A stretch of DNA of 64,000 nt from Geothrix terrae (GCF_022808775.1 NZ_JAKZLA010000001.1:496001-560000), one strand, 5' to 3'; shown: positions 1 through 47,320, counted from the stretch's first letter. Translations and numbers: made by a program. Notes: generated from the sequence alone by a model not told the origin.

Positions 1-3000
1 CGCGCTTCGCCATGATCCACCGGCGGTTCAGCACCAACACCCGGACGTCCTGGGACAAGGCCCAGCCCTTCCGCCTCATCGCCCACAACGGCGAGATCAA
101 CACCATCGCGGGCAACCGGTCCCGGGCCATCTCGCGCGAGATGTCCATCGGCCTCAAGGCCGACCAGCTCGTGACCCACGGCTCCATCAGCGATTCCGGC
201 AGCCTCAACGAGATCGCCGAGGCCCTGCACTACCGCAGCAGCATCCCGCACATGGAGGACATCCTCGCGATCATGATGCCTCCCGCCGAGGGGCAGAGCG
301 CCTTCTACACCTTCTGGAGCCGCGCCATGGAGCCCTGGGACGGCCCGGCCTTCCTGGTCTTCTCCGACGGGAGCAGCGTGGGGGCGCGGTTGGACCGCAA
401 CGGCTTCCGCCCGGCCCGGTGGGCCATGACCGATGACCGCTTCTACCTGGCCTCCGAGGCCGGCTCCTTCCCCGTGGACGAGGCCGCCATCCGCCGCAAG
501 GGCATCCTCTACGCGGGCACCGGCGTGTCTCTCGACCTGGCCAGCGGCAGAGTCCACTTCCGCGACCCGGGCCGCTCCCGCGAGCACCGGGACGCCACCT
601 TCGACGCCCGCACCCGGCCCATCGGATCGCTCCCGGGGACCGATGCGGCCGGCCCTGTCAGCGCCTTCAAGAAGACCCTCTTCACCTGTTCCCGCGAGGA
701 ACTGGAGAAGATCCTGTACCCCATGGCCGTCACCGGCAAGGAGGCCATCGGCTCCATGGGTGACACCGCCCGGCCCAACGTCTTCTCCTCCGAGCCCCGT
801 CCCTTCTTCGACTACTTCTATCAGCACTTCGCGCAGGTCACGAACCCGCCCTTGGACTACATCCGGGAGGGCAATATCACCGACCTCCGGGTGTTCCTCG
901 GCCGGGCGCCGAACATCTTCTTCCCCAAGGACCTGGTGCCCCTGAACGAGGCGCTGGAGCTGCCACGGCCCATCCTCGACCTGGGGCAGATGCGCTTCCT
1001 GGAGCGGATGCAGAGCCTGCGACCCTCGGAATCCCACATCATCCCCCGCACCTTCCCCATGGTCTTCCGGAGGGAGGACGGCGTGGCCGGCTTCCATGCG
1101 GCCGTCGAGCAGCTGGCCGCGGACGTGCGGAAGGCCGTCGAGCAGGGCACCAGCGTCATCATCCTCAGCGACCGGGAAGCCAGCGTCGAGCGGCCGCCCA
1201 TCCCGGGCCTCATCGCCCTGCGGGCCGTCGTGCACACCCTCAACGAATCGGGACTGCGCCTCAACGCCTCCATCGTCATGCACACCGGCGAGGCCCGCAC
1301 CTCCCACCATCTGGCGGCCCTCATCAGTTTCGGCGCCTCGGCGGTCTGCCCGTACCTGGCCCTGGAGATCGCCCGCCAGGACCAGCACCCCAGCTTCGGG
1401 AGCCTGACGCCGGACCAGCGCGAGAAGCATTTCGTCGGAGCCCTGGAATCGGGCCTCCTGAAGATCATGGCCAAGAGCGGGATCTCGGTGGTGCAGAGCT
1501 ACATGAGCGCCAAGCTCTTCACCGCCATCGGTCTGGGGCCCGAGCTGATGGAGACCTTCTTCCCGGGCCACGCGAGCCCGCTGGGCGGCATCGGCTATGA
1601 AGAGCTGGCCGGCGACGTGCTTCGGAAGACCAGCCTGGCGGCCCAGGCCGGCTTCATGGACCGCCTGCTCCACACCCACCAGTTCCGTGAATCGCCCCGG
1701 CCCAGTGAAGGCGAGCACCACGGCATGACCTCTGCGCGGGCCCGGCTACTCCACCGCCTGGTGAAACTGGAACCGGGCTCGGAGGAAGCGAGGGCCTTGT
1801 ACCAGGAATACCTGGCCTCGCTGAAGGACGACGAGCCCATCAACCCGCGCCACCTGCTGGCCTTCCGGACCGCCGCGACGCCCCTGCCCATGGAGGCCGT
1901 GGAGGACGTGTCGGCCATCCTGCACCGCTTCGGCGCCGGCGCCATGTCCTTCGGGGCCGTCAGCGCGGAGAGCCAGCGCGACCTGATCCTGGCCATGGAG
2001 GCCGTGGGCGGCCGCAGCAACAGCGGCGAAGGCGGCGAGAACCCCTTCTACTGGACGGACGGTATCACCGCCTCCACCAAGCAGGTGGCCTCGGCCCGCT
2101 TCGGCGTCACGGCGGAGTACCTCATCTCCGGGGAGGAGATCCAGATCAAGGTGGCCCAGGGCGCCAAGCCCGGCGAGGGCGGCCAGCTCATGCGCGTGAA
2201 GGTGGACGCCACCATCGCGAAGGCGCGGTTCTCCCTGCCGGACGTGGACCTGATCTCCCCGCCGCCTCTCCACGACATCTACAGCATCGAGGATCTCAAG
2301 GAGCTCATCCATGAGCTGCGGCAGGTCCACCCCGGCGCGAAGATCAGCGTGAAGCTGGTGTCCGGCACGGGCATCGGCACCATCGCCGTGGGCGTCGCCA
2401 AGGCCGGGGCGGACATCATCTACATCGCCGGCGGCGACGGCGGCACGGGCGCCGCCACGCTGGGCTCCATGAAGCATGCGGGCCTCCCCTGGGAGTTCGG
2501 TCTCATCGAAGCCCACCAGGCCCTGCGGGAGAACCAGCTCCGAGGCCAGGTGGAGCTGCGCGTGGATGGCGGCCTCCTCACGGGCAAGGACCTGGTGACC
2601 GCGGCCATCCTGGGCGCCGAGGGATTCGAGTTCGGCAAGCTCCTGCTCGTGGCCGAGGGCTGCATGATGGCCCGCATCTGCGAGAAGAACACCTGCCCCG
2701 CGGGCATCGCCACCCACGATCCGAAGTTCAAGGCCCGCTACACGGGAAGCCCCGAGGCGGTCCAGCGCATGCTCGTCCACCTGGCGGAGGATGCGCGCCG
2801 CCACCTCGCCTCCCTGGGCATCAGCTCCCTTTCCGAGCTGCAGGACCGTGTGGAGCTGTTCCAGGTGTCCCCCGAGCACGCGACCTTCGTCAGGGATCGA
2901 AAGCTGGACCTGTCGGGCTTCCTGGAGCCCCGCCCCGCGACGAACGGAGCCTCGCCGATCCCCTTCAACCAGGAGGGGGTCGCCCCGCTGAACCAGCAGA

Positions 3001-3785
3001 TCTTGGCGGATGCGGAGGCCTTCCTCGCAGGAGGGGGGGGCCATCACCACAGCTACGCCATCACCACCGGCGATCGGGGCATCCTGGCCACCCTGGCCGG
3101 AGCCATCGCCCGCCAGGTGCGTGAGCGGCGCCGGCGGGGCGAGGATCCCACGGTTCCCGGCCAGCTGCGGCTCGACTTCATCGGCAGCGCGGGCCAGGGG
3201 TTCGGCGCCTTCCTCACCGAGGGGCTCGACGTCCGCCTGCAGGGCGAGGCCAACGACTCCGTCTGCAAGTCCATGTCCGGCGGCCGGGTCATCCTCGTGC
3301 CTCATCCGGAAGCCTCCTATACCCCCGAGACGAACGCCATCGTGGGCAACGGCGCCCTGTACGGCGCCACGGGCGGAACGCTGCTGGTGCTCGGCCTGGC
3401 CGGCGACCGTTTCGCAGTCCGCAACAGCGGCGCCTCGGCCGTGGTCGAAGGCGCGGGCCACCACGCCTGCGAGTACATGACCCGCGGAGCCGTGGCCATC
3501 CTCGGCCCCGTCCTCACCAACGCCGGTGCCGGCATGACCGGCGGCTGCCTGTTCCTTCGGCGGGAGCGCGGCGACCAGGTGAACCGCGACTACCTCGCCC
3601 CGATCTCCTGGCGGCCCGAAGAGGGGGCCCTCTTCCGCGACCTCCTCGAGGCCCACGCCGCTGGAACCGGGAGCCGCACCGCCACGGCCCTGCTGGAAGA
3701 CTGGCCCGCAGCCCTCGCCGCCTTCGCACCCTTCGTGCCCGTGGCTGTGGCGAAGGTCGCCAGTCCCCAGGCCCAGGTTCTCTAG
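1..3785 (+). CDS. gltB: Glutamate synthase (GOGAT) large subunit, 5'-truncated by window edge
   Basis: Makes glutamate from glutamine and 2-oxoglutarate in nitrogen assimilation. The reading frame is open back to base 3, and the ATG at 12 is internal: residues around it (RRFSTNT, AHNGEINTI) belong to the glutamine amidotransferase domain, which normally begins with the catalytic Cys about 200 residues earlier. About 1,260 residues are present against roughly 1,500 in the family. Seen in order: rest of the class II amidotransferase, central linker domain, FMN-binding synthase domain with GGDGGTGAA, a C-x5-C-x4-C cluster (GCMMARICEKNTCPAG) expected to bind the [3Fe-4S] centre, and the Gly-rich GXGXG C-terminal domain. 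The small subunit gltD is not in the window. Confidence 0.96.
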   Translation, partial: RFAMIHRRFSTNTRTSWDKAQPFRLIAHNGEINTIAGNRSRAISREMSIGLKADQLVTHGSISDSGSLNEIAEALHYRSSIPHMEDILAIMMPPAEGQSAFYTFWSRAMEPWDGPAFLVFSDGSSVGARLDRNGFRPARWAMTDDRFYLASEAGSFPVDEAAIRRKGILYAGTGVSLDLASGRVHFRDPGRSREHRDATFDARTRPIGSLPGTDAAGPVSAFKKTLFTCSREELEKILYPMAVTGKEAIGSMGDTARPNVFSSEPRPFFDYFYQHFAQVTNPPLDYIREGNITDLRVFLGRAPNIFFPKDLVPLNEALELPRPILDLGQMRFLERMQSLRPSESHIIPRTFPMVFRREDGVAGFHAAVEQLAADVRKAVEQGTSVIILSDREASVERPPIPGLIALRAVVHTLNESGLRLNASIVMHTGEARTSHHLAALISFGASAVCPYLALEIARQDQHPSFGSLTPDQREKHFVGALESGLLKIMAKSGISVVQSYMSAKLFTAIGLGPELMETFFPGHASPLGGIGYEELAGDVLRKTSLAAQAGFMDRLLHTHQFRESPRPSEGEHHGMTSARARLLHRLVKLEPGSEEARALYQEYLASLKDDEPINPRHLLAFRTAATPLPMEAVEDVSAILHRFGAGAMSFGAVSAESQRDLILAMEAVGGRSNSGEGGENPFYWTDGITASTKQVASARFGVTAEYLISGEEIQIKVAQGAKPGEGGQLMRVKVDATIAKARFSLPDVDLISPPPLHDIYSIEDLKELIHELRQVHPGAKISVKLVSGTGIGTIAVGVAKAGADIIYIAGGDGGTGAATLGSMKHAGLPWEFGLIEAHQALRENQLRGQVELRVDGGLLTGKDLVTAAILGAEGFEFGKLLLVAEGCMMARICEKNTCPAGIATHDPKFKARYTGSPEAVQRMLVHLAEDARRHLASLGISSLSELQDRVELFQVSPEHATFVRDRKLDLSGFLEPRPATNGASPIPFNQEGVAPLNQQILADAEAFLAGGGGHHHSYAITTGDRGILATLAGAIARQVRERRRRGEDPTVPGQLRLDFIGSAGQGFGAFLTEGLDVRLQGEANDSVCKSMSGGRVILVPHPEASYTPETNAIVGNGALYGATGGTLLVLGLAGDRFAVRNSGASAVVEGAGHHACEYMTRGAVAILGPVLTNAGAGMTGGCLFLRRERGDQVNRDYLAPISWRPEEGALFRDLLEAHAAGTGSRTATALLEDWPAALAAFAPFVPVAVAKVASPQAQVL

Positions 3786-3800
3786 AGAGCCGCCTTGGAA

Positions 3801-3817
3801 CGGAGGTTCCCCCTCCG
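3801..3817. terminator. Short hairpin between convergent gltB and radical SAM gene
   Basis: CGGAGG-TTCCC-CCTCCG forms a 6-bp GC stem in the 38-bp gap between two convergent genes. It has no T-run on either side, so terminator function is only plausible. Confidence 0.35.
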
Positions 3818-3823
3818 CCCGCC

Positions 3824-4711
3824 CTACCCCACCCGGTCGAACAGGCCGGGCTGGCGGATGGGTGGCGGTGGAGGCGGCGCAGGCTTCACGGGCCGCTCGC
3901 GAACGCGCCGCCGCGCCGGAAACGCGGCCCGGAAGGCCTCCCGGATGCCTTCCGCATAGGCGGGATCCAACACCTTCAGCCAGCCATGGTCCGCCAGCAC
4001 CTTGTAGAAAGGATCCTGCTTCAGGAGCCGGAGGCCGCCGACCCAGGCGCCGGAAGCTCCGCTGGCCTTGGCCCGCCGGGCGAAGGCCTGGGCGTCATGC
4101 ACAGCCATGAGGGGGGCCACGGCCACGGTCACCCCGATACCCGCGGCGGCCAGGCGCTCGACGGCGGCCCACCGGCTGGGGATGGCGGGAGCGTGGGGTT
4201 CCACCGCCTGTCGCACGGTGTCGTCATCCGTGGGAATGGACAGGCCCACGGTCAGCCGATCGCCAAAGGCCCGCAGCAGGTCGAGATCCTGGAGCACCAG
4301 GGGCGACCGGGTGTGGACGATCACGTCGGTGGTGGGGCAGAGCAGCAGCACCTCCAGGCAGCGGCGACTGAGGCGGTACTGCCGTTCCAGCGGCTGATAG
4401 GGATCCGTGGCCGAGGCCATGAAGACCCGCTCGCCATGCAGCCGGTGCCGCTGGGACCAGAGCAGCTCCGGCGCGTTCAGCTTGGGCGTCACCCAGTTGC
4501 CCCAGTCCTCGGGCCGGTGAAGGGCGTTGGGGTATTCGCGGACATAGCAGTAGCGGCACCCGTGGCTGCAGCCGCGGTAGGGGCTGAGGGCGAACCCGAA
4601 ACCGTAGCGCTCGTCCTTCTGGGGTCGCAGGATGGACCGCGCTTCTTCAGGCTCCACCAGCAGGCCCTGGAAGAGGGAGGGCGATTCCGAAGGCAGCGGC
4701 AGCGGCGTCAT
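3824..4711 (-). CDS. SPL-like radical SAM protein
   Basis: A 295-residue radical SAM enzyme of the spore-photoproduct-lyase-like / Rv2578c-like group. The cluster motif C-x3-C-x2-C (CSHGCRYC) lies near residue 50 and is followed by YVREYPNALHRPEDWG, typical of this group. A TIM-barrel core follows (VFMASATDPYQPLE, TVGLSIPTDDD). The C-terminus is basic and proline-rich. The substrate is unknown; members are often called DNA repair proteins without proof. It starts 30 bases downstream of the DUF421 gene stop and is probably the last gene of the minus-strand run. The Shine-Dalgarno is weak, so the start is moderately sure. Confidence 0.85.
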   Translation of the reverse strand: MTPLPLPSESPSLFQGLLVEPEEARSILRPQKDERYGFGFALSPYRGCSHGCRYCYVREYPNALHRPEDWGNWVTPKLNAPELLWSQRHRLHGERVFMASATDPYQPLERQYRLSRRCLEVLLLCPTTDVIVHTRSPLVLQDLDLLRAFGDRLTVGLSIPTDDDTVRQAVEPHAPAIPSRWAAVERLAAAGIGVTVAVAPLMAVHDAQAFARRAKASGASGAWVGGLRLLKQDPFYKVLADHGWLKVLDPAYAEGIREAFRAAFPARRRVRERPVKPAPPPPPPIRQPGLFDRVG

Positions 4712-4741
4712 GCCTTCAGTTTTCGCTTTTTATTCGTCGAG

Positions 4742-5263
4742 TCAAGGGGTGGCTGGCGGTTTGGGGATCACATTGATGCGGCCGTTGGTCTCGAGGATGG
4801 CCACTCGCACGTCCGCGAGATCCGCCACGCCCGCCTGCCGGACCGCCGCCATGAGCTCATGGTGGGTGATCCGCTCGGCGGCGAGCATGGCCTCGTCCGG
4901 GACGCCATGATGCACGAGGATCTGGGGCCTCCCTTCCAGAAAGGTCTCCGCCCGCTTGCTGCGCCATGTGAACCATGCCATCAGGGCGTTCAGCACCAGG
5001 AGGGTGCCCACCAGGATGAAGCCCGCCGACACCGTGTTGTCGCCGGCGTTCATGCTGTTCTGGACGGCGTTGCTCAGGACCAGCAGCATCACGAAGTCGA
5101 AGGGGGCCAGCTGGCCCACCTGGCGCTTGCCCGTGAGGCGCAGCATCACCATCAAGAACCCGTAGACCAGCAGGGCCCGGAGGACGAATTCCCACCAAGG
5201 CTGCGCGAGGCGCCACATGGAAGAGCCCACAGGCAGGGCGTCGATGAGCGCGGCGACGGGCAT
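4742..5263 (-). CDS. DUF421 (YetF-like) membrane protein
   Basis: A 173-residue inner-membrane protein. Two to three hydrophobic helices in the first half contain the family pattern LTGKRQVGQLAPFDFV, and a soluble C-terminal DUF421 domain follows (GRPQILVHHG, ending GRINVIPK). The family is known as YetF/YdfS-like and has no firmly assigned biochemical role. The start at 5263 is preferred over an upstream in-frame start at 5302 because GGGAGGGCCC sits directly before it and the upstream stretch is not conserved-looking. It is followed closely by the radical SAM gene. Confidence 0.85.
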   Translation of the reverse strand: MPVAALIDALPVGSSMWRLAQPWWEFVLRALLVYGFLMVMLRLTGKRQVGQLAPFDFVMLLVLSNAVQNSMNAGDNTVSAGFILVGTLLVLNALMAWFTWRSKRAETFLEGRPQILVHHGVPDEAMLAAERITHHELMAAVRQAGVADLADVRVAILETNGRINVIPKPPATP

Positions 5264-5281
5264 GGGCCCTCCCACACGAAG

Positions 5282-5307
5282 GGGCGGTGCCGGCCGCGGC
5301 ACCGCCC
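5282..5307. terminator. Perfect 10-bp hairpin between DUF2914 and DUF421 genes
   Basis: GGGCGGTGCC and GGCACCGCCC form a perfect stem with a 6-base loop in the 74-bp gap between two minus-strand genes. There is no T-run after it on the minus strand. It could attenuate or terminate transcription, or stabilise the upstream message. Confidence 0.45.
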
Positions 5308-5337
5308 TCGTCGGACATCAGGATCGAGGCTGGCTTC

Positions 5338-5772
5338 CTACTGGATCTCGACGGAGAAATCCGCCTTGCCCAGTTCCGCCCCGTCCGCGCCCAGCACCTT
5401 CACCGTCCAATCGCCCGCATCGCCGGCCCGGAACGTGCGATAGGCGTTGGTGCGATAGGGCGAGCGGGGCACCTTCAGCTCCTGCTTCGAGGTGCGCTCG
5501 CCCTTGCTGAACACCACCGTGACCGTGCTGTCGGCGGCGCCGGCGACCTTCGTCCAGGCATAGATCTTCGTGCCGGCGGGCACCTTGAACGAGGTGGACT
5601 CGCCCTGGATCTCCATCTTCTCCACGCCGGTGCCGACCTTGACTTCGGCGCTGGCCTTGGTTTCCGCCTTGGCCTCCGCCATCGCCGCGGGCTTGGGTTC
5701 AGCCTTGGGCGCCGGCGCCTGGGCGAAGAGGGCCGCAGAGGCAAGGATGGGAAGGAACAGGTTCTTGCGCAT
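5338..5772 (-). CDS. DUF2914 domain protein, exported
   Basis: A 144-residue protein with an N-terminal signal peptide (MRKNLFLPILASAALFAQA), an Ala/Lys/Glu-rich linker of about 35 residues, then a DUF2914 domain from about residue 55 to the end (PAGTKIYAWTKVAG, PRSPYRTNAYRTFRAGDAGD). DUF2914 is a small beta-rich domain of unknown role in secreted or membrane proteins. AGGAG stands 7 bases before the ATG, so the start is well supported even though the frame stays open upstream into the next gene. It lies downstream of the DUF481 gene in the same direction. Confidence 0.87.
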   Translation of the reverse strand: MRKNLFLPILASAALFAQAPAPKAEPKPAAMAEAKAETKASAEVKVGTGVEKMEIQGESTSFKVPAGTKIYAWTKVAGAADSTVTVVFSKGERTSKQELKVPRSPYRTNAYRTFRAGDAGDWTVKVLGADGAELGKADFSVEIQ

Positions 5773-5831
5773 GGGAGACTCCTGAAAAGGTGGCCCCATT
5801 CTGCGCCTGCCGGCGCCGGGTGTCACCAGGA

Positions 5832-6695
5832 TCAGAAGCTGATCACCAGGGAGGTGGTGAACACGGTGTCGGTCTTCTTCAACTGGAAGGGCACCTGGCC
5901 CAGGATCACGGGGGGCGTGGCGACGGGCGTCTGCACGACGTCCACTCCTACGGAAGCGGGCTTGTTCTTGTAGGTCACGTCGTAGCCGACCTTCAGGGCC
6001 AGCCGCGAGGACAGGTTCGTGGTGAAGCCGTTCCGCCATACCGCCAGGTAGTTCTGGGTGTCCTTGAAGCTGTCGGAGAGGTTCAACTCCGAGGTGAAGG
6101 CGGAGGTGGCGAAGATCTTCTTTTCGAATTTGGCGCCCAGCCGGAAGGTGGCGAACCCGTCCTCCGTGCCCACGGGCCGGAACACCGGCGTCTCCTTGGT
6201 ATAGCCCACGCCGGCATCCGTGAAGAACTTGGTGCGATCCTCCTTGATCCACCAGTACCCCAGGCCCGCCAGCCCCATGTAGCGTGCTTCCAGTCCCGCG
6301 GGGAGGTTGCGCTCCCATCCGGCGGCACCGAACCACAGGAGGCGCTCGGTGATGTTGTGGTCGTAGCGGAGGTTCGCGTAGTAGGTCTCCGTGCTGGTCT
6401 TGGTGGTGCGGGTCTCCTGGACCGTGGCCGTGGCCAAGCTCGATCCCAGGGCGCTGCGGTCGATGGTGGTGGTGGCCACCCGCACGCCCCCCACGTTGAA
6501 GGCGAAGGTCGCATCAACCCAGGTGTATTTGAACTCGTTGGTGAAGCCCAGGCTCTGGCTGGAGGCGTTCCCGCCCACGGCCACGTAGCTCAGGGCCGCC
6601 TTGTCCGACCAGGGCCGCTTGGGAGCTGCCGCCTCCTGGGCGGCCAGTGACAGTAGGGCCAGCGGAATGGCCAACAGGAAAAGGCCCGTCTTCAT
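5832..6695 (-). CDS. DUF481 outer-membrane barrel protein
   Basis: A 287-residue exported protein: signal peptide (MKTGLFLLAIPLALLSLAAQ) followed by alternating beta strands and a terminal phenylalanine (SLVISF), the usual signature of an outer-membrane barrel. The opening WSDKAALSYVAVGGNASSQS is the typical DUF481 entry (salt-stress-induced outer-membrane protein family, YdiY-like). The start at 6695 is chosen because CAGGAG precedes it at good spacing and the signal peptide begins there; an in-frame start 9 codons upstream is less likely. It is 54 bases after hemG and probably in the same transcript. Confidence 0.85.
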   Translation of the reverse strand: MKTGLFLLAIPLALLSLAAQEAAAPKRPWSDKAALSYVAVGGNASSQSLGFTNEFKYTWVDATFAFNVGGVRVATTTIDRSALGSSLATATVQETRTTKTSTETYYANLRYDHNITERLLWFGAAGWERNLPAGLEARYMGLAGLGYWWIKEDRTKFFTDAGVGYTKETPVFRPVGTEDGFATFRLGAKFEKKIFATSAFTSELNLSDSFKDTQNYLAVWRNGFTTNLSSRLALKVGYDVTYKNKPASVGVDVVQTPVATPPVILGQVPFQLKKTDTVFTTSLVISF

Positions 6696-6749
6696 GGCCG
6701 GCTCCTGGAAATTCCCGGCCATGCTAGCAGCCTCGTGTCGAAAGCAGTC

Positions 6750-8009
6750 TCAGGAGACCCAGGTCTCCAGACCTTCCAGGATGTCCCGCACCCCCGGCCC
6801 GAAGCGGGCGTTGCTCAGCCAGTCCACGCCAGCGGGCAGGCCTTCCAGGGCGGTCTTCACCCGGGCGCGGTGGCCCAGCTCGGGGCGTGGGATGGCCCGC
6901 TCGGCGCGCTCGTGGCGCACGGCCGCAGGGTCGCTGAGGGCGGGGACCCAGTGCTTGAGGCGGGCGTACACGCCCTCCCAGGCCTCCAGGTCCGCCGGCT
7001 TGCCGAAGGCCCCGCCAATGAAGCTGCGGAGCTGCATGGCGCCCTCCGGCGCGCTCTGGGGATCCATCCAGGAGGGCACCAGGGAACCCAGGTAGCCCCG
7101 CCCTTCCGGGGGATGGATGAGGAAGCCGAAGCTGTCCTTCAGAGCGGGCAGCGGGGTGTGGCGGCTGTGCCAGAGGTCCACGGAGGTGTAAGGGATGGCC
7201 GCCAGGGCTTCGGCACTCTTCGGCGCCACGGGCCCGAGGAGGGTCGCCGCCTCGTAGGCGGGCAGCGCCAGCACCACGCGATCCGCCTCGCGCACCTCGC
7301 CCCCGCCGCTCACGCGCCAGCGGCCATCCGGCAGGGCCTCCAGGCGCTCGGCCCGCAGGCCCGCGCGCACGGCGCCGAGCTTCGAAGCCAGACGGATGGG
7401 CAGCTGCCCCATGCCGCCCTCAGGCACCACCATGTGGCTCACGCCGCCCTTGCGGATCCCGTTCACCAGGCTGCCCGTGGCTTCCCACTGACGCAGCTTG
7501 GGGATGGCGTCCACGGAGAGGACCTCCGCCGGGGCCGCCAGGACGCCAGCGATCATGGACGGCAGCAGCTCCGTGGCCACGCCCTTGCCCAGACGGCGCT
7601 CGATGAAGGCCGACAGGCCCTCCTCGGGCTCGGCCGGACGCACCGGCTGGAAGGGCTCCAGCATCATCCGGAGCTTGGCGCCGACAGACATCAGCGGCGA
7701 GGTCATCAGGCCCACGGGCGAAGCGGGAACGGGGATCAGGCGTCCGCCCTTCCCCACCCAGCGGGCGCCGGTCCCGGGTGACTTGAAGGGCAGCTCGATG
7801 GCGCTGAAGAGGCGGTCCACCGCGGTCCCCTTTTGCCAGAGCACGCCCTGGGGGCCCGTCTCGAAGTGGCCGCCTTCCCAGGGCAGGGTCTTCATCCAGC
7901 CGCCCACGGAGGCCGCGGCTTCCCACACTTCGACGGATTCGCCCTTCCGCTGCAGGTGCCAAGCCGCGGCCAGGCCCGTCACGCCGCCGCCGAGAATGAG
8001 GGTGCTCAT
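6750..8009 (-). CDS. hemG: Protoporphyrinogen oxidase, FAD-dependent (HemY type)
   Basis: Oxidises protoporphyrinogen IX (or coproporphyrinogen III) to the porphyrin in late haem synthesis. The 419 residues open with the dinucleotide-binding motif ILGGGVTGLAAAWHL and end with a second FAD contact region (GVDWLSNARFGPGVRDI). Size and layout fit the HemY/PPOX flavoprotein family, not the small HemG flavodoxin. Its ATG overlaps the hemH stop codon (ATGA), so the two are translationally coupled. Which of the two oxidase substrates it prefers cannot be told from sequence alone. Confidence 0.92.
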   Translation of the reverse strand: MSTLILGGGVTGLAAAWHLQRKGESVEVWEAAASVGGWMKTLPWEGGHFETGPQGVLWQKGTAVDRLFSAIELPFKSPGTGARWVGKGGRLIPVPASPVGLMTSPLMSVGAKLRMMLEPFQPVRPAEPEEGLSAFIERRLGKGVATELLPSMIAGVLAAPAEVLSVDAIPKLRQWEATGSLVNGIRKGGVSHMVVPEGGMGQLPIRLASKLGAVRAGLRAERLEALPDGRWRVSGGGEVREADRVVLALPAYEAATLLGPVAPKSAEALAAIPYTSVDLWHSRHTPLPALKDSFGFLIHPPEGRGYLGSLVPSWMDPQSAPEGAMQLRSFIGGAFGKPADLEAWEGVYARLKHWVPALSDPAAVRHERAERAIPRPELGHRARVKTALEGLPAGVDWLSNARFGPGVRDILEGLETWVS

Positions 8010-8953
8010 GGGAGGATCTCCAGGACACGCCGCGTCAGGCAGCGGATGTAGGCCGGGTCGGTGCCCGGCGTGGGCACGCGGCGGTAGGTGCGGATGCCCG
8101 CCTGGTCGGCCACGTGGCGGTATTCGATATCGAGCTCGTGCAGGGTCTCGATGTGCTCGCTCACGAAGCTCATGGGCACGACGATCACGTCCTTGCCGCC
8201 CATGGATTCCAGCACCGACTTCAGGGGCGGCTCCAGCCAACGCACAGGGCCCGTGCGGCTCTGATAGGCCTGGAGGTAGCCGCCGGGAACGGGTCCGATG
8301 CGCGCGATCAGGGCCTCGCGGGTGGCCGTGATCTCCTTCTCGTAGGGATCCCCGGCCTCGATCTGGCGCACGGGCAGGCTGTGGGCGCTGAAGATCACCG
8401 TGGCCTCGGGCAGGTCTTTCAGCGCCGCGCGCAGGGGCCGTTCCAGAGCGTCCAGGTAGTCGGGGTCCGTGGCGTAGTGCTCAATCCCCGGCAGGATCTC
8501 GATCCCCGCCTTCGCGGCCTCGACGACCAGTTCGCGCAGACTGGAACCCGTGGTGGCGCGGCAGTCGTGGGGATACAGGGTCACGGGCACCAGCTTGCGG
8601 ACGCCGTCGCGCTTCAGGGCCTTCAGCAGGCCCTCGGCCCGGGGGGCGGCATAGCGGAAGCACAGCTTCACCAGCTCGGGACGGCCGGCGGCGCGGAGGG
8701 CGGCCCGCAGCTCCGCGGCCTGGAGGGCGCTCTCCCGAAGCAGCGGTGAGCCGCCCCCGATCTGCCCGTAACGGACCTTCGCGCCGGGCGCCCGGAGTCG
8801 GGCGATGAGCCGCGACAAGGGGCCCTGGAGCCAGGCGGGCCCGGGCAGCCGGATCAGGTCCCGGTCGCCGAACAAGGCCGCGAGGAAGGGTTCAACCTGG
8901 TCCAGGTTCACTGGACCGCCGAGGTTCAGGAGCAGGATCGCCGTATCTCGCAT
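8006..8953 (-). CDS. hemH: Ferrochelatase
   Basis: Inserts ferrous iron into the porphyrin ring. The 315-residue protein starts with LLLNLGGP and contains FSAHSLPVRQIEAGDPY, holding the catalytic His, and a later acidic iron-binding stretch (SFVSEHIETLHELDIEY). The ATG at 8953 follows AAGGTGG; an alternative ATG 8 codons upstream (8977) has a poorer ribosome site. It is first gene of the hemH-hemG pair, and a divergent gene starts 111 bases away. Strictly it could be a coproporphyrin ferrochelatase, depending on which haem branch this organism uses. Confidence 0.93.
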   Translation of the reverse strand: MRDTAILLLNLGGPVNLDQVEPFLAALFGDRDLIRLPGPAWLQGPLSRLIARLRAPGAKVRYGQIGGGSPLLRESALQAAELRAALRAAGRPELVKLCFRYAAPRAEGLLKALKRDGVRKLVPVTLYPHDCRATTGSSLRELVVEAAKAGIEILPGIEHYATDPDYLDALERPLRAALKDLPEATVIFSAHSLPVRQIEAGDPYEKEITATREALIARIGPVPGGYLQAYQSRTGPVRWLEPPLKSVLESMGGKDVIVVPMSFVSEHIETLHELDIEYRHVADQAGIRTYRRVPTPGTDPAYIRCLTRRVLEILP

Positions 8954-9064
8954 CACCTTCCACCTTACGCGAGACATGGCGGAACTTTCGTCACGGAAAC
9001 CCGGACTCGGCATGACGCCGGAATGACCGACATCCCATAAACTGTCCTGACACTGGAGTCCGCC

Positions 9065-9586
9065 ATGGCCACCCCCGCCTCTCTGTCCGCCTTCGCCGCC
9101 TTGCCCGATGAGGCCCGGCTCTGGCTCGTGGCCTTCGACCGGCCGGTGGACGCGGCGCTCCTGGCCCCGGATCTGGACGCGCTCATGGGCCGCTGGCGCC
9201 ACAAGGGCGTCCAGTACCAGGGGACCTGGACCCTGCTGGAGGATCGCATCCTGGCCATCGCGGAGCCCACCCTGGCTTCGAATCCCTCGGGCTGCGCCAT
9301 CGACGGCATGCTCCGGAGCGTCGGGCAGACGGCCGGGCGCCTGGGTCTCGGGCTCCTCGATCCGCAGGTGGTGGTGGCCCGCCTGTCCGGGGCCCTGCGG
9401 GCCTTCACCCGCCCAGAACTCGAGTCCCGCCTTGCGGATGGCACGCTGGGCGCCACCACGCCGATCCTGGATCTGGCCCTGCTGACCCTCGGAGATCTGC
9501 GGCACGGCCGGTTCGAGCGTCCCCTCTCCACCACGTGGATTGGCCGTAAGTACAAGGTTCAGGCCCCGGTTTCCGCCGAGGCCTGA
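9065..9586 (+). CDS. Conserved protein of unknown function (WxxKG/SGCxID family)
   Basis: A 173-residue soluble protein. LPDEARLWLVAFDR near the start, WRHKGV at about residue 44 and NPSGCAIDGM near residue 77 match the pattern of a small family often labelled 'ABC transporter ATPase' in databases, although no Walker motif is present here. I recall the family mainly from Bacteroidota. The Cys of SGCxID and the Trp/Lys pair are the most conserved-looking points. It is transcribed divergently from hemH. Confidence 0.72.
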   Translation: MATPASLSAFAALPDEARLWLVAFDRPVDAALLAPDLDALMGRWRHKGVQYQGTWTLLEDRILAIAEPTLASNPSGCAIDGMLRSVGQTAGRLGLGLLDPQVVVARLSGALRAFTRPELESRLADGTLGATTPILDLALLTLGDLRHGRFERPLSTTWIGRKYKVQAPVSAEA

Positions 9587-9592
9587 GTCAAA

Positions 9593-9606
9593 CCGGCAGC
9601 TGCCGG
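9593..9606. other. 14-bp perfect palindrome between convergent genes
   Basis: CCGGCAGCTGCCGG lies in the 27-bp gap between the convergent genes ending at 9586 and 9614. It may be a weak shared terminator stem; no T-run is present. Confidence 0.35.
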
Positions 9607-9613
9607 CGGGCGG

Positions 9614-10015
9614 CTAGAAGATCGATTCGCCCGGCTTGCGGCGCCAGGCTTCAGAGCGCTTGGGCCCGTCGGTCTTGGGCTTGGCATCCTTGGCGGCAGC
9701 CAGGGTCTGCAGCAGGGAGCCGCCCACCTTGGAGGCCACACTCTTGGCCAGGGCCGGGGCGGCGGGGACCGCGGGGGCGCTTACCGGACCGGCGGCGGGG
9801 GCTTCAGGAGCGGCGGCCTTCGCCGTGATCTCCTTCAGGCGCTTCTCGTACCAGACCTTCCGCTTGGGATCGATGGTCCGAGTGTTCGCGGCCTTCTCCC
9901 CCTTCTTGAGAACCTTGGGCTTGGGCTTCTCGCGGTCTTCACGCAATACGGAATCGGGCTTTGCTGCTTCTTCGAGGATTTTCGCCAGGTTTCCAAGGCC
10001 ACGCAGGTTCATCAT
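9614..10015 (-). CDS. Hypothetical Lys/Ala/Pro-rich protein
   Basis: A 133-residue protein that I do not recognise. The N-terminal 50 residues are basic (LREDREKPKPKVLKKGEKA), a short KRKVWYEKRLKEI helix follows, then a low-complexity Ala/Pro linker and a basic C-terminal tail (KRSEAWRRKPGESIF). No signal peptide or membrane segment is seen. Two adjacent ATGs (10015 and 10012) are possible starts. The composition suggests a nucleic-acid-associated or scaffold-like protein, but that is only inference. Confidence 0.6.
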   Translation of the reverse strand: MMNLRGLGNLAKILEEAAKPDSVLREDREKPKPKVLKKGEKAANTRTIDPKRKVWYEKRLKEITAKAAAPEAPAAGPVSAPAVPAAPALAKSVASKVGGSLLQTLAAAKDAKPKTDGPKRSEAWRRKPGESIF

Positions 10016-41624: not shown

Positions 41625-43658
41625 ATGGACCTCACCTGGCTATCCGCCAACCCCGGCCTGACCTTGCTGGCCTTTCTCGCCGCCGCCTTCACAGCGATCC
41701 TCCTCAGCAAGTGGATCCGCTACATCCCCAACAACCGCGTGGGCATCGTCGAAAAGCTCATCAGCCGGAAGGGCTCGGTCAAGACCGGCCTCATCGCCCT
41801 CAACGGCGAGGCCGGCTATCAGCCCCAGCTCCTGCGCGGCGGTTGGCACCTGCTCACGCCCTTCCAGTACCGCATCCACAAGATGCCCCTGGTGACCATC
41901 CCCCAGGGCAAGATCGGCTACATCTTCGCCCGCGACGGCAAGGACCTGCCCCCCACCCAGGCCCTGGCCAGCAACACCCACGGCGCGGACTTCCAGGATG
42001 TGGTGGCCTTCCTCCAGAACGGCGGCCAGAAGGGCCCCCAGCGCCAGATCCTGCGTGAGGGCATCTACGCCATCAACCTGGTGCAGTTCGTGGTGCTCAC
42101 CGAGGACCGGCTCTTCTACCTCCCCCTGGATCCGGGTGAGCTGGACACCTTCCAGAAGATGAGCGCCATCATCACCGAGCGGGCCGGCTGGCGGCCCGTG
42201 ATCATCAAGGGCACGGACGACGCCGTGGGCATCGTGACCGTCCATGACGGGCCCAGCCTGGCCAGCGGCGAGATCATCGCCTCCACCGTGGGCGAGGATC
42301 CCCACCAGGCCCCGACCTACCACAACAATTTCCAGGATGCCGACAAGTTCCTGGTGGCGGGCGGCCAACGCGGGCGCCAGTACCAGGTGCTGGTGGAAGG
42401 CACCTACTACATCAACCGCCTCTTCGCCACGGTGGAGCTGATCCCCAAGACCGTGGTGGAGGTGGGCACCGTGGGCGTGGTGGTGAGCTACACCGGCGCC
42501 ATCGGCGCCGATATCAGCGGCCAGGAGTATCGCCACGGGGAGCTGGTGGCCAAGGGCAGCCGCGGCGTGTGGAGCGAGCCCCTGCTGCCCGGCAAGTACG
42601 CATTCAACACCTACGCCGGCAAGGTGCTCATGGTGCCCACCACCAACTTCATTTTGAAGTGGTCCAAGGGCGAGGTGGGCAGCCACAAGTTCGACGAGAA
42701 CCTGGCGGAGGTGAGCCTCATCACCAAGGACGCCTTCGAGCCCAGCCTGCCGCTCTCCGTGGTGGTGCACATCGACTACCGAAAGGCGCCCCTGGTCATC
42801 CAGCGCTTCGGCGACATCAAGAAGCTGGTGGAGCAGACCCTGGATCCCATGGTCAGCGCCTACTTCAAGAACATCGGCCAGACGCGCACCCTCATCCAGC
42901 TCATCCAGGACCGAAGCGCCATCCAGGAACAGAGCGGCACCCAGATGAAGGAGAAGTTCGCCCAGTACAACCTCGAGCTGCAGGAAGTTCTCATCGGCAC
43001 GCCCACCAGCGGCGCGCCCGGCGGGCAGATCGAGCAGATCCTCGTCCAGCTCCGCAGCCGCCAGATCGCCGATGAGCAGGTGGAGACCTATGGCCGCCAG
43101 CAGAGCGCCGCGGTGAAGGAGCGGGAGCTGCGCGAGGCCGAGGCCCGCGCCAAGCAGCAGACCCTGCTCACGGAATCCGCCATCGGCATCGAGGTGCAGA
43201 GCAACCAGGGCAAGGCCGAGTACGCCAAGGCCCAACAGCAGGCGGCCCAGATCCAGACACTGGCCGGCGCCGAAGCGGAGAAGGTGCGCCTCATGGGTGA
43301 AGGCGAGGCCAAGCGCATCAAGGTCATGGCCGAGGCCCAGGCCGAGCAGGCCGCCCGGGTGGGCATCGCCCAGGCCATGGCCATCGAGGAGCAGGTCCGC
43401 GCCTACGGCGGTCCCCAGTTCCAGCTGGTGCAGCAGGTCATGAACCGCTTCGCCGAGGCCATCGAGAAGTCCCAGGTGGATGTCGTTCCCAAGATCCATA
43501 TGGGCGGCGGCGACAAGGGCGGCGGCAGCCTCATCGAGAGCCTGCTGGGCCTCCTCCTCAGCGAGAAGGCCGGCCAGCTCGCGGGCGTGGTGCCCACCGC
43601 GGCCAATCCCGAGGCCGAGGCGCTGAAGACGGCCCTGAGGCAGAACCTCACGAAGTAG
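41625..43658 (+). CDS. SPFH/flotillin-like membrane protein
   Basis: A 677-residue protein: one N-terminal membrane helix (LTLLAFLAAAFTAILLSKWI), duplicated beta-rich SPFH-like segments (GQKGPQRQILREGIYAINLV near residue 130 and GQRGRQYQVLVEGTYYINRL near residue 245), then a long Ala/Glu/Gln-rich coiled coil (about 480-610, KQQTLLTESAIGIEVQ, AQIQTLAGAEAEKVRLMGEGEA) and a Gly-rich tail. This is flotillin architecture, a membrane scaffold that oligomerises. The NfeD partner common beside such genes is not here. CTGGAG precedes the ATG. Confidence 0.85.
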   Translation: MDLTWLSANPGLTLLAFLAAAFTAILLSKWIRYIPNNRVGIVEKLISRKGSVKTGLIALNGEAGYQPQLLRGGWHLLTPFQYRIHKMPLVTIPQGKIGYIFARDGKDLPPTQALASNTHGADFQDVVAFLQNGGQKGPQRQILREGIYAINLVQFVVLTEDRLFYLPLDPGELDTFQKMSAIITERAGWRPVIIKGTDDAVGIVTVHDGPSLASGEIIASTVGEDPHQAPTYHNNFQDADKFLVAGGQRGRQYQVLVEGTYYINRLFATVELIPKTVVEVGTVGVVVSYTGAIGADISGQEYRHGELVAKGSRGVWSEPLLPGKYAFNTYAGKVLMVPTTNFILKWSKGEVGSHKFDENLAEVSLITKDAFEPSLPLSVVVHIDYRKAPLVIQRFGDIKKLVEQTLDPMVSAYFKNIGQTRTLIQLIQDRSAIQEQSGTQMKEKFAQYNLELQEVLIGTPTSGAPGGQIEQILVQLRSRQIADEQVETYGRQQSAAVKERELREAEARAKQQTLLTESAIGIEVQSNQGKAEYAKAQQQAAQIQTLAGAEAEKVRLMGEGEAKRIKVMAEAQAEQAARVGIAQAMAIEEQVRAYGGPQFQLVQQVMNRFAEAIEKSQVDVVPKIHMGGGDKGGGSLIESLLGLLLSEKAGQLAGVVPTAANPEAEALKTALRQNLTK

Positions 43659-43707
43659 ACCGCGAACCGAGCACCCACCAGGGGCGGCACCCGCCGCTCC
43701 TGGCCCT

Positions 43708-43717
43708 GTGCTAGTTT
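43708..43717 (+). promoter_or_regulatory. Extended -10 element before the TPR gene
   Basis: GTGCTAGTTT, identical to the extended -10 element before the ilvA leader (31537-31546), 58 bases before the TPR gene's ATG. No good -35 is visible. Confidence 0.35.
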
Positions 43718-43774
43718 GGTAACCGATTCCCGGCGCCTCTTCCCTTCCACCATCCTCCAGGGTGCCCTTTACCG

Positions 43775-44608
43775 ATGCTGCTCCAATCCCCCCCGGCCCA
43801 GATCCAGACCCTGGCCATCCTCCCGCAGCTTCCGCCCGTCCCCGACGCTCTCGTCAAGGCGAAGGACTGGGCCGGCCTGGCCGATTGGTTCGAAACCGTC
43901 GCGCCCGCCACCCGCGGCGCCTACTATGAGTGGTGGCTGCTGGGCCTCAAACGGAGCCAGCGCTGGGATCGTCTCCTGACGGTTTGCGAGGCACTGCAAC
44001 CCCAGGTTGAAGCCAAGACCGGCCCCCGCCTCGCCTCGTACCGGGTCTACCGGGCCCAAGCCCTGGGCCAGCTGGGGCGGCACGCCGAGGCGGCCCGGGC
44101 CCAGGCCGAGAATGGCCGGCTTGGCGACCTCGACGGCCTCTCCAATGCGTGCGTGGAGGCCCGGATGGCCGAGGACTGGGCGGCCCTCCTGACCTACGCC
44201 GACGAGCTGCGCGCCAAGAATCCGGAGGACGCCAACGGCCTGGCCTGGAAAGGCGAAGCCCTGGCCCGCATGAACCGCTTCACCGACGCCGAGCCCATCC
44301 TCAGGGAAGCGCTGGCGAAGAATCCAAAGATCGCCTATGCCTGGAACAACCTCGGCCGCTGCCTGAACGAGCGGAAGGCCTGGGCCGAGGCTGCCGAGTC
44401 GCTGGACCGCGCCCTCACTCTGGAACCGAACCAGCTCGAGGCTCTGTTCAACCGGGGTCGAGCCCGGTTCGAGCTGAAGCGCTACCAGGAGAGCCGTGAC
44501 GACTTCCGCGCGGCCCTGGCCCTTCAACCTGACAATCTCGTGCTTGCCGAGAACCTCCGCCAGGCCGAGCGCTACGCCGCCCTCCCCGCGCCGAAGAAAC
44601 GGCGCTGA
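43775..44608 (+). CDS. Tetratricopeptide-repeat protein
   Basis: A 277-residue cytosolic protein built of TPR helix pairs. The C-terminal repeats are clear: NGLAWKGEALARMNRFTDAE, IAYAWNNLGRCLNERKAWAEA and LEALFNRGRARFELKRYQES. The earlier part (to about 120) is helical and more diverged. No signal or enzymatic domain. Likely a protein-interaction adaptor; partner unknown. Convergent with the Cache-HAMP receptor gene (22-bp gap). Confidence 0.82.
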   Translation: MLLQSPPAQIQTLAILPQLPPVPDALVKAKDWAGLADWFETVAPATRGAYYEWWLLGLKRSQRWDRLLTVCEALQPQVEAKTGPRLASYRVYRAQALGQLGRHAEAARAQAENGRLGDLDGLSNACVEARMAEDWAALLTYADELRAKNPEDANGLAWKGEALARMNRFTDAEPILREALAKNPKIAYAWNNLGRCLNERKAWAEAAESLDRALTLEPNQLEALFNRGRARFELKRYQESRDDFRAALALQPDNLVLAENLRQAERYAALPAPKKRR

Positions 44609-44630: not shown

Positions 44631-45806
44631 TCAGTCGTTCCGGCTGAGCATGGCCATGGACTTCTTGAGGCTCACCCGCATCCGCTCGAAGGCGCGGATG
44701 AGCAGGCCGATCTCATCCTCCCGCTCGGTTTCGAGCTTCAGCTCCACATTGCCCATGCTGATCTCCTTGGCCTGCCCGGCGAGCCGGACCAGGGGGCCGA
44801 CGATCTCGGCCCGGAGGTAGGCCGCGCCCACCAGGAAGCTGCCCGCGAACACCAGGAGCGTGATGAGGACCAAGGTCCACAGGGCCATGCGCTCGTTCCG
44901 GACCTGGTCGGTCACGTCGTTGAGCGTGAGCACCACGCCCACCTGCTTGCCGGAGGAATCCTTGAGCGGGAAGGCCCCCTTGGCAAGGCTGGCCCCGCCC
45001 CGGTCCAGGGTTCCGAAGTACTCGGGCGCCGCCGTCTTGCGGAAGTCATCCTCGGAGACCAGAGCCGCCGCGGTCTTGGCATCCGGCAGGGTGGTGCTGA
45101 CCATGACGAAGCCCTTGAACTGGTTCCAGGTGTCGGGCTTGCCCGAAGCCTTCATGGTCTTGTGGTACTGCTCCTCGTCCAGGAAGCGCTTGTCGACCAT
45201 CACGGCCACGTCCACGCCGGTCTCACGCTTCACCAGCTGGTCGAAGTGGTCGATCTCCTCGCCGAATTCGAGGAACCCGATCAGGTTCCCGCCATGGAGG
45301 TACGGGGTGACCACTCGCAAGGCGAAGGCGGTCTTCCCAAGCTCGATCCCGCTGATGGTCTTCCCCGCGGCCCGGGACTGGAGGAACGTGTCCCGCTGGA
45401 TCTGGTCCCCGAAGTTCCCCGTGTCATGGGCCCTCAGGAAGCAGGTGCCGTCCTTGTCGATGAAGTAGAGGTGGGTGATCCCGTAGCGGGTCTTGTTGAT
45501 CCGGTAGGCGTCCTGCACGGCATCCAGGAGCTTCTGGCGATCCTGATGCTCCGCGTAGATCTGGCGCACCGCGGCGTTGGTGGCGAAACAGTCCATGGCC
45601 GCAGCGAGCATCTTGGCGTCGCCCTGGAGGATGAGGTTGTAGGCGCCCTGGGATCGCTCCACCGCCTTCGTGGCGTTCAGGGCGAGATCCTTGCGCGCGG
45701 ACACCAGGAGGACCCCGGAGAAGACCGCCACCATCAACAGTTCCAGAATGAGGATTCCGCCCAGCATCTTGAAACGGATGCTTCGCTTGAGGGCTCCAAA
45801 GTCCAT
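44631..45806 (-). CDS. Cache-HAMP membrane receptor without output domain
   Basis: A 391-residue sensor: membrane helix 1 (FKMLGGILILELLMVAVFSGVLLV), a large periplasmic double-Cache-type domain (about 35-285) with YGITHLYFIDKDGTCFLRAHDTGNFGD and GKTISGIELGKTAFALRVVTPY, which fits the dCache_3-like group, helix 2 (WTLVLITLLVFAGSFLVGAAYL), and one HAMP domain ending near the C-terminus (EDEIGLLIRAFERMRVSLKKSM). No kinase, MCP or GGDEF domain follows, so it must act through a partner. Last gene of an operon with roadblock and DUF4388 proteins. GGAGG precedes the start. Confidence 0.88.
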   Translation of the reverse strand: MDFGALKRSIRFKMLGGILILELLMVAVFSGVLLVSARKDLALNATKAVERSQGAYNLILQGDAKMLAAAMDCFATNAAVRQIYAEHQDRQKLLDAVQDAYRINKTRYGITHLYFIDKDGTCFLRAHDTGNFGDQIQRDTFLQSRAAGKTISGIELGKTAFALRVVTPYLHGGNLIGFLEFGEEIDHFDQLVKRETGVDVAVMVDKRFLDEEQYHKTMKASGKPDTWNQFKGFVMVSTTLPDAKTAAALVSEDDFRKTAAPEYFGTLDRGGASLAKGAFPLKDSSGKQVGVVLTLNDVTDQVRNERMALWTLVLITLLVFAGSFLVGAAYLRAEIVGPLVRLAGQAKEISMGNVELKLETEREDEIGLLIRAFERMRVSLKKSMAMLSRND

Positions 45807-45828
45807 GCATGACCTCCAGGTGTCGGGT

Positions 45829-46419
45829 TCAGCCGAGGATGGCGCGGGCTTCCTGCAGGAAGGCCTTCTGGTCGGCGGGGTCGTCGAGTTCCTTCGCAAG
45901 GCGGGCCGCGAACTCGCTTGGATCCCCCGCCCCGCAGCCGGAGGACCAGTCGGCCTGGATCCTCGTGAAGAGGAGGTCGCCAATGGGGCCGATGCGGACC
46001 ACGAAGGCCTCCTTCAGCGCACCCAGGGCCGAGTACTTCGGGGGGGCCGACGGAGGCAGGGATCGGGACGGTGCCGTCTCCGCCTTCTCGAGCCTGTGCG
46101 CGGCCTGGACCAGAGCCAGGCTCACGAGCTGGATATTGGTGGCGCCGCCGCAGAGGGCGAGGATCGCCCCTTTCGAGAAGGGGCGGAGGACCAGGCGTCC
46201 CCCGTTGTACCGGAGGTCCAGACCACCCCCATCACCCTGGAGGGCCTGCTGGACCATGAAGTCCTCTGCGAGGAGCCGGGCCATTCCCCGGAGGCTCTCC
46301 ATGGGATAGCTGGCGGGAAAGTCAGCGGCCAGGATCGCACCTTCCGGACTGTAGGCCATGGCCCCGACCGCTCCCGGAATGCTGAGGACCTGATGGAGGA
46401 TCTCGCGGGCGTCGGTCAT
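45829..46419 (-). CDS. Roadblock/LC7-domain protein
   Basis: A 196-residue cytosolic protein. The first 110 residues fit the Roadblock/LC7 (MglB-like) fold: REILHQVLSIPGAVGAMAYSPEGAILAADFP and GRLVLRPFSKGAILALCGG. The remainder is a helical region after a Pro/Ser linker. Such proteins bind or activate small Ras-like GTPases or assemble as dimers on signalling complexes. Its ATG overlaps the DUF4388 gene stop (ATGA). No GTPase gene is nearby. Confidence 0.82.
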   Translation of the reverse strand: MTDAREILHQVLSIPGAVGAMAYSPEGAILAADFPASYPMESLRGMARLLAEDFMVQQALQGDGGGLDLRYNGGRLVLRPFSKGAILALCGGATNIQLVSLALVQAAHRLEKAETAPSRSLPPSAPPKYSALGALKEAFVVRIGPIGDLLFTRIQADWSSGCGAGDPSEFAARLAKELDDPADQKAFLQEARAILG

Positions 46420-47201
46420 CGACCGGCCCTCTGCGGCGCCAGGGCCCGTCGGATCCCGGCCTCCACGGCCTCATGGGCGGCTCCTTCCGCCAGGCTGACC
46501 GCGAGGCTCGTCTCCTTGGACCGGAACAGCAGCATCCGGTCCGGTCCGCCGTGCGTCGCGGCGACCTGGAATTCACCCAGGCCGAAGGCCTCCCCGAGCG
46601 GCTCCGCCACCATGCTCGCGAGATACGCCCCACGGGCTGCCAGCCCCTCGGTCTCGGAACCGGTGCGGCCGCGAGGTGAGCCGTGGCGGTCCATGAAGAT
46701 GCCGAGGGCGACGCCGCTGACGTGTTCGACGGCCTTCAGGGGATCGTTGGAATGGGCGGAGGAGGAATGGTCGTGAGACACCCCGGCCCTGGACTCGGCC
46801 AGGCCATGGCGGCTCTCGTCGAGCCACTGGTGGGCCGACAGGAGCAGGTGCTCGCGGCGCTTCTGGATGGACCGGCGCAGGCTCGTCACATTGGGCTGCA
46901 GCCGGAAGTTCCCTCCAGGCCAGCCCATGATGTGGTTGAAGGCCTCCTCGCCGCTGAGGCTGCCCACCTCGGCATGCACCACCTCGCCCTGCTGGAAGAA
47001 GATCTGCCCTTCCCGCTCCTGGTAGGTGACGAGGATGGAACCCGAGAACAGGTTCTGCCCCTCCAGCTGGATCACGTCTGCCAGGGCGAGGTGCGAGATG
47101 GCCCCTTCGAACCCAGCCCGATCCTGGTCCCCGGGTTCCCCGACCAGGTCGGTCGAAGGTTCTGGATGGGTGGGAAACATGTCTTTCGCCGCCATCGCCA
47201 T
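46416..47201 (-). CDS. DUF4388 (PatA N-terminal-like) protein with roadblock-like tail
   Basis: A 261-residue cytosolic protein. Residues 30-125 or so match the DUF4388 pattern: FEGAISHLALADVIQLEGQNLFSGSILVTYQEREGQIFFQQGEVVHAEVG and the GEEAFNHIMGWPGGNFRL continuation (split here by reading). The C-terminal 120 residues (VSGVALGIFMDRHGS, DRMLLFRSKETSLAVSLAEG) look like a diverged Roadblock/LC7 fold. First gene of the DUF4388-roadblock-receptor operon; a promoter with an operator-like palindrome lies upstream. Confidence 0.8.
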   Translation of the reverse strand: MAMAAKDMFPTHPEPSTDLVGEPGDQDRAGFEGAISHLALADVIQLEGQNLFSGSILVTYQEREGQIFFQQGEVVHAEVGSLSGEEAFNHIMGWPGGNFRLQPNVTSLRRSIQKRREHLLLSAHQWLDESRHGLAESRAGVSHDHSSSAHSNDPLKAVEHVSGVALGIFMDRHGSPRGRTGSETEGLAARGAYLASMVAEPLGEAFGLGEFQVAATHGGPDRMLLFRSKETSLAVSLAEGAAHEAVEAGIRRALAPQRAGR

Positions 47202-47292
47202 GGGAATGCCTCAAGAGGAGGTTTTCGAGAGAGGCCCATCCAGGATCTGCTTCTCCCCAGCGGGAGGGCAGCCGTATTCTTTACCAAAAGGT

Positions 47293-47320
47293 ATTGTATT
47301 TTTTCACCCCTCCGGGTGAA
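47293..47320 (-). promoter_or_regulatory. Promoter and palindrome before the DUF4388 operon
   Basis: On the minus strand TTCACC (revcomp of 47315-47320) and TACAAT (revcomp of 47293-47298) are 16 bases apart. The perfect inverted repeat TTCACCC-CTCC-GGGTGAA (47303-47320) covers the -35 box, as an operator would. Confidence 0.5.

Follow-up and report, generated by a model that had tools for sequence, protein, structure and literature searches.

A receptor ending at its HAMP domain and a candidate adaptor domain in a kinase-free roadblock/DUF4388 operon of Geothrix

Introduction

How can a transmembrane receptor pass on its signal if its polypeptide stops directly behind the HAMP domain, i.e., if no output domain is attached? 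The question is raised by a three-gene operon of Geothrix terrae, for which an earlier reading of the sequence (in the following, the original prediction) suggested signalling through a Ras-like GTPase or through direct protein contacts. The first HAMP structure stems from a protein of similar architecture, namely AF1503 of Archaeoglobus fulgidus. So far, receptors that end at HAMP are on record as isolated examples to which no partner has been assigned (PMC3585426, PMC12889525). Both AF1503, described as lacking an output domain (PMC3585426), and a heme-Cache-HAMP protein of P. azotoformans (PMC12889525) have a cytoplasmic part that consists of HAMP and little more, as does the receptor considered here.

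We analysed a window of 64,000 nucleotides from a Geothrix genome (Acidobacteriota; 3.43 Mb, 14 contigs), with all positions counted from its first letter. Below, we describe the operon, its conservation, and a small helical domain, termed CT, that we propose as the partner of the receptor.

Results

Gene layout of the operon

The three genes form a single minus-strand operon with the gene content and coordinates that the original prediction had given. Gene 1 (46416-47201, identified by its ORF, the Pfam DUF4388 match and orthologues) encodes a DUF4388-roadblock protein of 261 aa. It is followed by gene 2 (45829-46419; ORF and orthologues) for a roadblock-CT protein of 196 aa and by gene 3 (44631-45806; ORF, Pfam and orthologues) for a dCache_3-HAMP receptor of 391 aa, which terminates after HAMP. 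Genes 1 and 2 share an ATGA overlap (46416-46419), and the roadblock gene is separated from the receptor gene by a gap of 22 bp that holds a GGAGG site. Ahead of gene 1, a consensus scan places one sigma-70-like promoter on the minus strand (47293-47320), where 0.1 sites are expected from shuffling. This only promoter-like site of the trio is overlapped by a perfect inverted repeat, TTCACCC-GGAG-GGGTGAA (47303-47320), a possible operator.

The opposite strand carries a 677-aa band 7/SPFH protein and a TPR protein next to the trio (41625-44608). The convergent TPR gene (43775-44608; Pfam, E 8e-18) stops 22 bp past the receptor stop, and a TPR gene adjoins the trio in two further genomes (G008, G015) as well. 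Besides, ten DUF4388 proteins were counted in one 3.4-Mb genome (G000), several of them on frames of 300-580 aa.

The receptor ends at HAMP

With regard to the receptor, Pfam finds two significant domains, i.e., an extracytoplasmic dCache_3 sensor domain (PF14827, residues 58-300, minus strand 44907-45635; 64.2 bits at a cut-off of 25.7) and a HAMP domain (PF00672, residues 333-381 of 391, minus strand 44664-44810; 41.5 bits at a cut-off of 25), and neither an MCP signalling nor a histidine-kinase domain. The ten residues that remain behind HAMP (minus strand 44634-44663) lie within an end motif, ERMRxSLKxAxxxL, that is shared in an alignment of 27 receptor ends. Searches against NCBIfam gave weak, HAMP-driven matches for the receptor and no match for the DUF4388 protein or the 196-aa protein. 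Among plasmid sequences, the receptor of the window has partial matches, mostly to annotated MCPs, i.e., its sensor half is MCP-like; no further HAMP-terminal partners emerged from this search.

The end of the protein is well defined. All five orthologues have exactly 391 aa with a nearly invariant C-terminal end, such that the Cache-HAMP receptor does stop right after HAMP, as had been proposed. We also looked for an MCP or kinase domain split off by a frameshift, which had been named as the case that would speak against this architecture. It is absent, and we reject it given the constant length in 5/5 orthologues and the convergent TPR gene that comes next. According to family searches, the trio receptor is the only one among the HAMP proteins examined in its own genome that ends at HAMP.

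Folds of the cytoplasmic proteins

The N-terminal part of gene 1 is a DUF4388 domain (PF14332, residues 32-130, minus strand 46812-47108; 62.6 bits at a cut-off of 25), which InterPro names 'PatA-like, N-terminal' and which we take to be of the PATAN type. Roadblock proteins have been reported to be encoded near PATAN proteins (PMC4316618). For the remaining parts of both cytoplasmic proteins, Pfam is of little help: no family exceeds its cut-off for the 196-aa protein, and the label 'roadblock' finds no support in either protein of the window, with DUF2173 at E 0.08 as the only hit. Weak Robl_LC7 matches occur in six relatives of the roadblock protein and in seven of the DUF4388 protein.

We thus turn to AlphaFold2 models, each built from ten sequences and of moderate confidence (mean pLDDT 77 and 72). 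Both predict the roadblock topology, i.e., a helix, two strands, a second helix, three strands and a final helix. In the 196-aa protein it spans residues 4-113, and in the DUF4388 protein residues 154-254. When compared with known structures, the model of the roadblock protein reaches Z 16.0 over 112 residues to 3kye and Z 13.5 to 3leq, which are both Streptomyces roadblock domains; the C-terminus of the DUF4388 protein reaches Z 11.9 over 106 residues against roadblock structures. The best structural matches of the two models comprise a Streptomyces roadblock domain, MglB, archaeal roadblocks and Ragulator subunits. Furthermore, a sequence profile of the DUF4388 protein family matches solved roadblock proteins in the PDB, including CvnB5. 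We therefore assign predicted roadblock-fold domains to residues 1-116 of gene 2 (minus strand 46072-46419; model and 3kye match) and to residues 150-256 of gene 1 (minus strand 46434-46754; model, Foldseek, VIA-align and PDB profile matches). That is, model topology and structure matches bear out the Roadblock/LC7 protein of the original prediction and its guess that the DUF4388 protein ends in such a fold.

Conservation within Geothrix

Among 77 searched genomes of the family, the receptor is encoded in 5 of the 47 Geothrix genomes and is absent from the 30 genomes of other genera at E 1e-20. In all five receptor-bearing genomes the trio is contiguous, i.e., the operon is kept in those relatives that have the receptor, and no kinase gene is found at any of these loci. 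The five receptors are 66-87% identical, a higher conservation than that of their partners; e.g., the DUF4388 protein of Geothrix fermentans DSM 14018 (locus L044) is 74% identical.

Seven further Geothrix loci encode a related DUF4388-roadblock/roadblock pair and no receptor. The roadblock proteins of these pairs are without CT, the helical extension of about 65 aa at the C-terminus of the 196-aa protein. The same holds for a receptor-less pair in another genus of the family (L095).

The CT domain and its linkage to HAMP-terminal receptors

In the window, CT covers residues 130-195 of gene 2 (minus strand 45835-46032). It is predicted to be helical, carries the motif IGPI...LLF...LAKELDDP, and is delimited by alignments, the helices of the AlphaFold2 model and a match to the DUF4388-CT profile introduced below. 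There is no Pfam match for CT. Its common features in the alignment are a GP(I/M/L) motif and a subsequent acidic-F segment. A CT profile from Geothrix only has no match outside the genus at E 0.001; the wider set opened once two divergent members had joined it. The roadblock and CT profiles that led to further loci contain no receptor sequence, while the HMMs used for the subsequent census include some of the receptors and adaptors that are counted.

For the census, an ORF was considered HAMP-terminal if it ends within 20 residues of its HAMP domain. Such an ORF is adjacent in 27/27 CT loci (12 families, window included) compared to 0/32 controls, i.e., 0/24 DUF4388 loci without CT and 0/8 receptor-less pairs. 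The respective Fisher test yields p 2e-17 for loci that are related by descent; since they share ancestry, the 12 families are a fairer count than the 27 loci.

The carrier of CT varies. It is the roadblock protein in the window and in three further loci (L096, L097, L144), all three of which have a Ser/Thr kinase within the same cluster. Among these, L096 (another genus of the family) and L097 (another family) combine roadblock-CT and a HAMP-terminal receptor with further roadblocks and the kinase. CT is located on a DUF4388 protein in L140-L143, L145, L146, L150, L151, L153 and L155-L162. Finally, it is part of a Ser/Thr kinase beside a Tll0287-HAMP receptor in L147, where the kinase lies downstream of the receptor on the same strand, and in L148, where the two are convergent.

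Two of these loci show additional features. At L097 (G097, 2302-9034), a kinase and several roadblocks occur together with a HAMP-terminal receptor, a Cache-like protein that is exported, and a receiver-DUF4388 protein whose end is roadblock-like; apparently, the module has been duplicated here. The Ser/Thr kinase of L096 (7100-8407) has a C-terminus that by eye resembles another roadblock domain, which parallels the DUF4388-roadblock fusion of the window.

A wider operon with DUF4388-linked CT is found in several families (e.g., L140-L143, L145, L150, L151, L153). It begins with DUF4388-roadblock, usually followed by a protein of about 340-420 aa; roadblock, DUF4388-wHTH-CT and a HAMP-terminal receptor of about 400-425 aa come next. 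Domains and gene order agree with the trio, while the carrier of CT is a second DUF4388 protein rather than the roadblock protein, and the extra protein is present in most copies. To relate both operon types, we compared homology profiles for which the window group and the wider-operon group were kept separate. The DUF4388-roadblock protein of the window group matches the first gene of the wider operon with E 1.8e-25, the roadblock proteins match each other with E 6.6e-8, and Geothrix CT matches DUF4388-CT with E 2.3e-6 over 67 columns. The trio represents a compact form of a module that extends over at least 12 families of Acidobacteriota. No kinase gene occurs in the wider DUF4388-CT operons examined. 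On plasmids, the receptor of the wider operon has no relatives, and its DUF4388-CT protein has only a partial DUF4388 match in Thermomicrobium.

CT kinases on proteobacterial plasmids

Outside Acidobacteriota, HAMP-terminal Tll0287 (heme-Cache) receptors are encoded on plasmids of Skermanella, three Caballeronia, Paraburkholderia and Rhodovulum, each with a Ser/Thr kinase directly downstream. All six of these kinases contain CT in tandem, i.e., two domains (full-sequence E 1e-9 to 1e-16), and in five of them CT is also detected by a profile built from Geothrix, G052 and G097 sequences only. CT was found in none of 8 control plasmid kinases without a neighbouring HAMP-terminal receptor. A search of 72,556 plasmids with the CT region returned four records, all receptor-adjacent, compared to 817 records for the kinase domain alone. 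An exception to the linkage is a cyanobacterial HAMP-terminal receptor on a Rippkaea plasmid, which has no CT neighbour.

As a further observation, CT kinases and HAMP-terminal heme-Cache receptors adjoin type VI secretion genes (tagF, tssM, tssH or tssBC) in L188, L189, L190, L191 and L201, sometimes together with a PP2C phosphatase. We found no open-licence paper that combines DUF3365 with roadblock or with type VI secretion, although such absence is weak evidence.

Discussion

Taken together, we consider it probable that the trio is a split, kinase-free transmembrane module in which the signal runs from the HAMP end of the receptor via the CT adaptor to a roadblock/DUF4388 scaffold. We infer the direction of signalling, the contact of CT, the pairing of the roadblocks and the output from comparative evidence. 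First, dCache_3 would sense a small molecule outside the membrane, and the signal would travel through the membrane helices to the HAMP bundle and the conserved tail. The central step follows from the linkage of CT to receptors of this kind: because the receptor has no output domain of its own, its HAMP end and tail may contact CT on the roadblock protein, such that CT would act as a detachable adaptor standing in for a covalent output domain. Here, gene neighbourhood speaks for functional linkage; it does not identify the touching surfaces. The predicted roadblock of gene 2 would then pair with the C-terminal roadblock of the DUF4388 protein into a scaffold, similar to the dimers of MglB or MP1/p14. 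The last step is the least certain one, i.e., the scaffold may act by protein contacts via DUF4388/PATAN and/or via an unlinked MglA GTPase. In related operons, a Ser/Thr kinase or a DUF4388-wHTH protein would receive the signal from CT.

A more specific form of the last step is that the receptor controls the roadblock pair as GAP, GEF or recruiter of MglA and thereby polarity or pilus activity. This route, which is compatible with a receptor-CT contact, appears rather unlikely to us, albeit the best of the alternatives. The model-based matches of both cytoplasmic proteins to MglB-type folds fit it, and a canonical mglBA pair is present in all genomes with the trio. Conservons link a receptor to roadblock and GTPase, and PATAN genes are sometimes found near mglA (PMC4316618). 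However, no GTPase gene occurs in the trio, beside it or in the wider operons examined. In the window genome, mglBA is located on another contig; mglA is already paired with its own adjacent mglB, and the pair is equally kept in Geothrix genomes without the receptor (G016, G019). Moreover, roadblock domains also serve as plain scaffolds, as in Ragulator. Since MglA is unlinked and equally present without the receptor, a GTPase output is possible but unsupported. Of the two routes originally proposed, direct contacts are the probable one.

Still more doubtful is a scenario in which the trio works as sensor and adaptor for a Ser/Thr kinase from another genomic locus, which would provide the output. 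The fusions of CT to kinases in L147, L148 and the six proteobacterial loci, as well as the kinases clustered with the module in L096, L097 and L144, would agree with such a route in trans. Against it, neither the five Geothrix trios nor the wider DUF4388-CT operons examined hold a kinase gene, and no candidate kinase was identified. With respect to this operon, the original claim of a system lacking any catalytic output is correct; it does not extend to the module, because CT in its sister systems is fused to or encoded with Ser/Thr kinases.

We regard it as highly improbable that the trio is a degenerate remnant of the longer Acidobacteriota operon that has lost signalling. While the second DUF4388 protein and the protein of 340-420 aa are missing and the trio occurs in few Geothrix genomes, the receptor is of full length and well conserved in all five, and its partners are intact and translationally coupled. 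Mere adjacency of three unrelated signalling genes, for which nothing more than the small number of trio-bearing genomes could be cited, is refuted by the five contiguous copies and by other families in which this set of domains recurs in an identical order.

We return to the split module of receptor, CT adaptor and scaffold, and relate it to known systems. Conservons (CvnA-D) are operons that similarly combine a HAMP membrane receptor with a roadblock protein and a functionally uncharacterised partner (PMC4316618, PMC13343842). They differ by the histidine-kinase module of CvnA and the operon-encoded Ras-like GTPase CvnD; the trio has neither and shows DUF4388 and CT instead. Because conservons have kinase and GTPase, we reject the trio as a member; only the roadblock component (CvnB) is found. 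MglB shares the roadblock/LC7 fold with gene 2, which is, however, not encoded with mglA. The MglA-MglB-RomR/RomX network of Myxococcus xanthus, which controls type IV pili, also uses roadblock proteins, but its centre is the GTPase, and it has neither a HAMP-terminal receptor nor CT. The cyanobacterial regulators PixE, PixG and LsiR resemble the trio in using a PATAN-type domain as protein-contact output (PMC7690835, PMC10519157); they are controlled by a phosphorylatable receiver domain rather than by a roadblock scaffold and receptor. In contrast to AF1503, which has no assigned partner, we propose the neighbouring CT as partner of the receptor. Within the open-licence literature, only PMC4316618 combines roadblock, HAMP domain and Acidobacteria. 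We found no description of CT or of such an operon there, absence again being weak evidence.

With regard to the output, PATAN proteins have emerged as candidates for pilus regulation (PMC11580455), and cyanobacterial PATAN regulators bind the type IV pilus motor PilB (PMC7690835, PMC10519157). The receptor-less DUF4388-roadblock/roadblock pair of L095 (G052, 1829-9922) is located beside a PilT-like T2SSE ATPase and a cheA/cheW cluster. Both hint at an output in the direction of type IV pili.

The original prediction knew of no described system with exactly these three parts. The trio is real, but it is no one-off: the module is found in at least 12 families, always together with CT, which had been overlooked. 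CT would probably read the HAMP end and relay to whatever partner it is fused to, i.e., to roadblock/PATAN here and to a Ser/Thr kinase elsewhere. More tentatively, and with somewhat less confidence than doubt, we suggest that CT is a general adaptor, unnamed so far, which in various phyla takes over the role of a covalent output domain for HAMP-terminal receptors, with Ser/Thr kinase, roadblock and DUF4388/PATAN as interchangeable outputs on separate proteins. The pairing of CT and receptor may well form a separate class. If CT is the dedicated and swappable partner (kinase, roadblock, PATAN) of receptors ending at HAMP, it would explain how these receptors signal. It would also tie bacterial roadblock proteins, which are usually discussed together with GTPases, to transmembrane receptors without a kinase.
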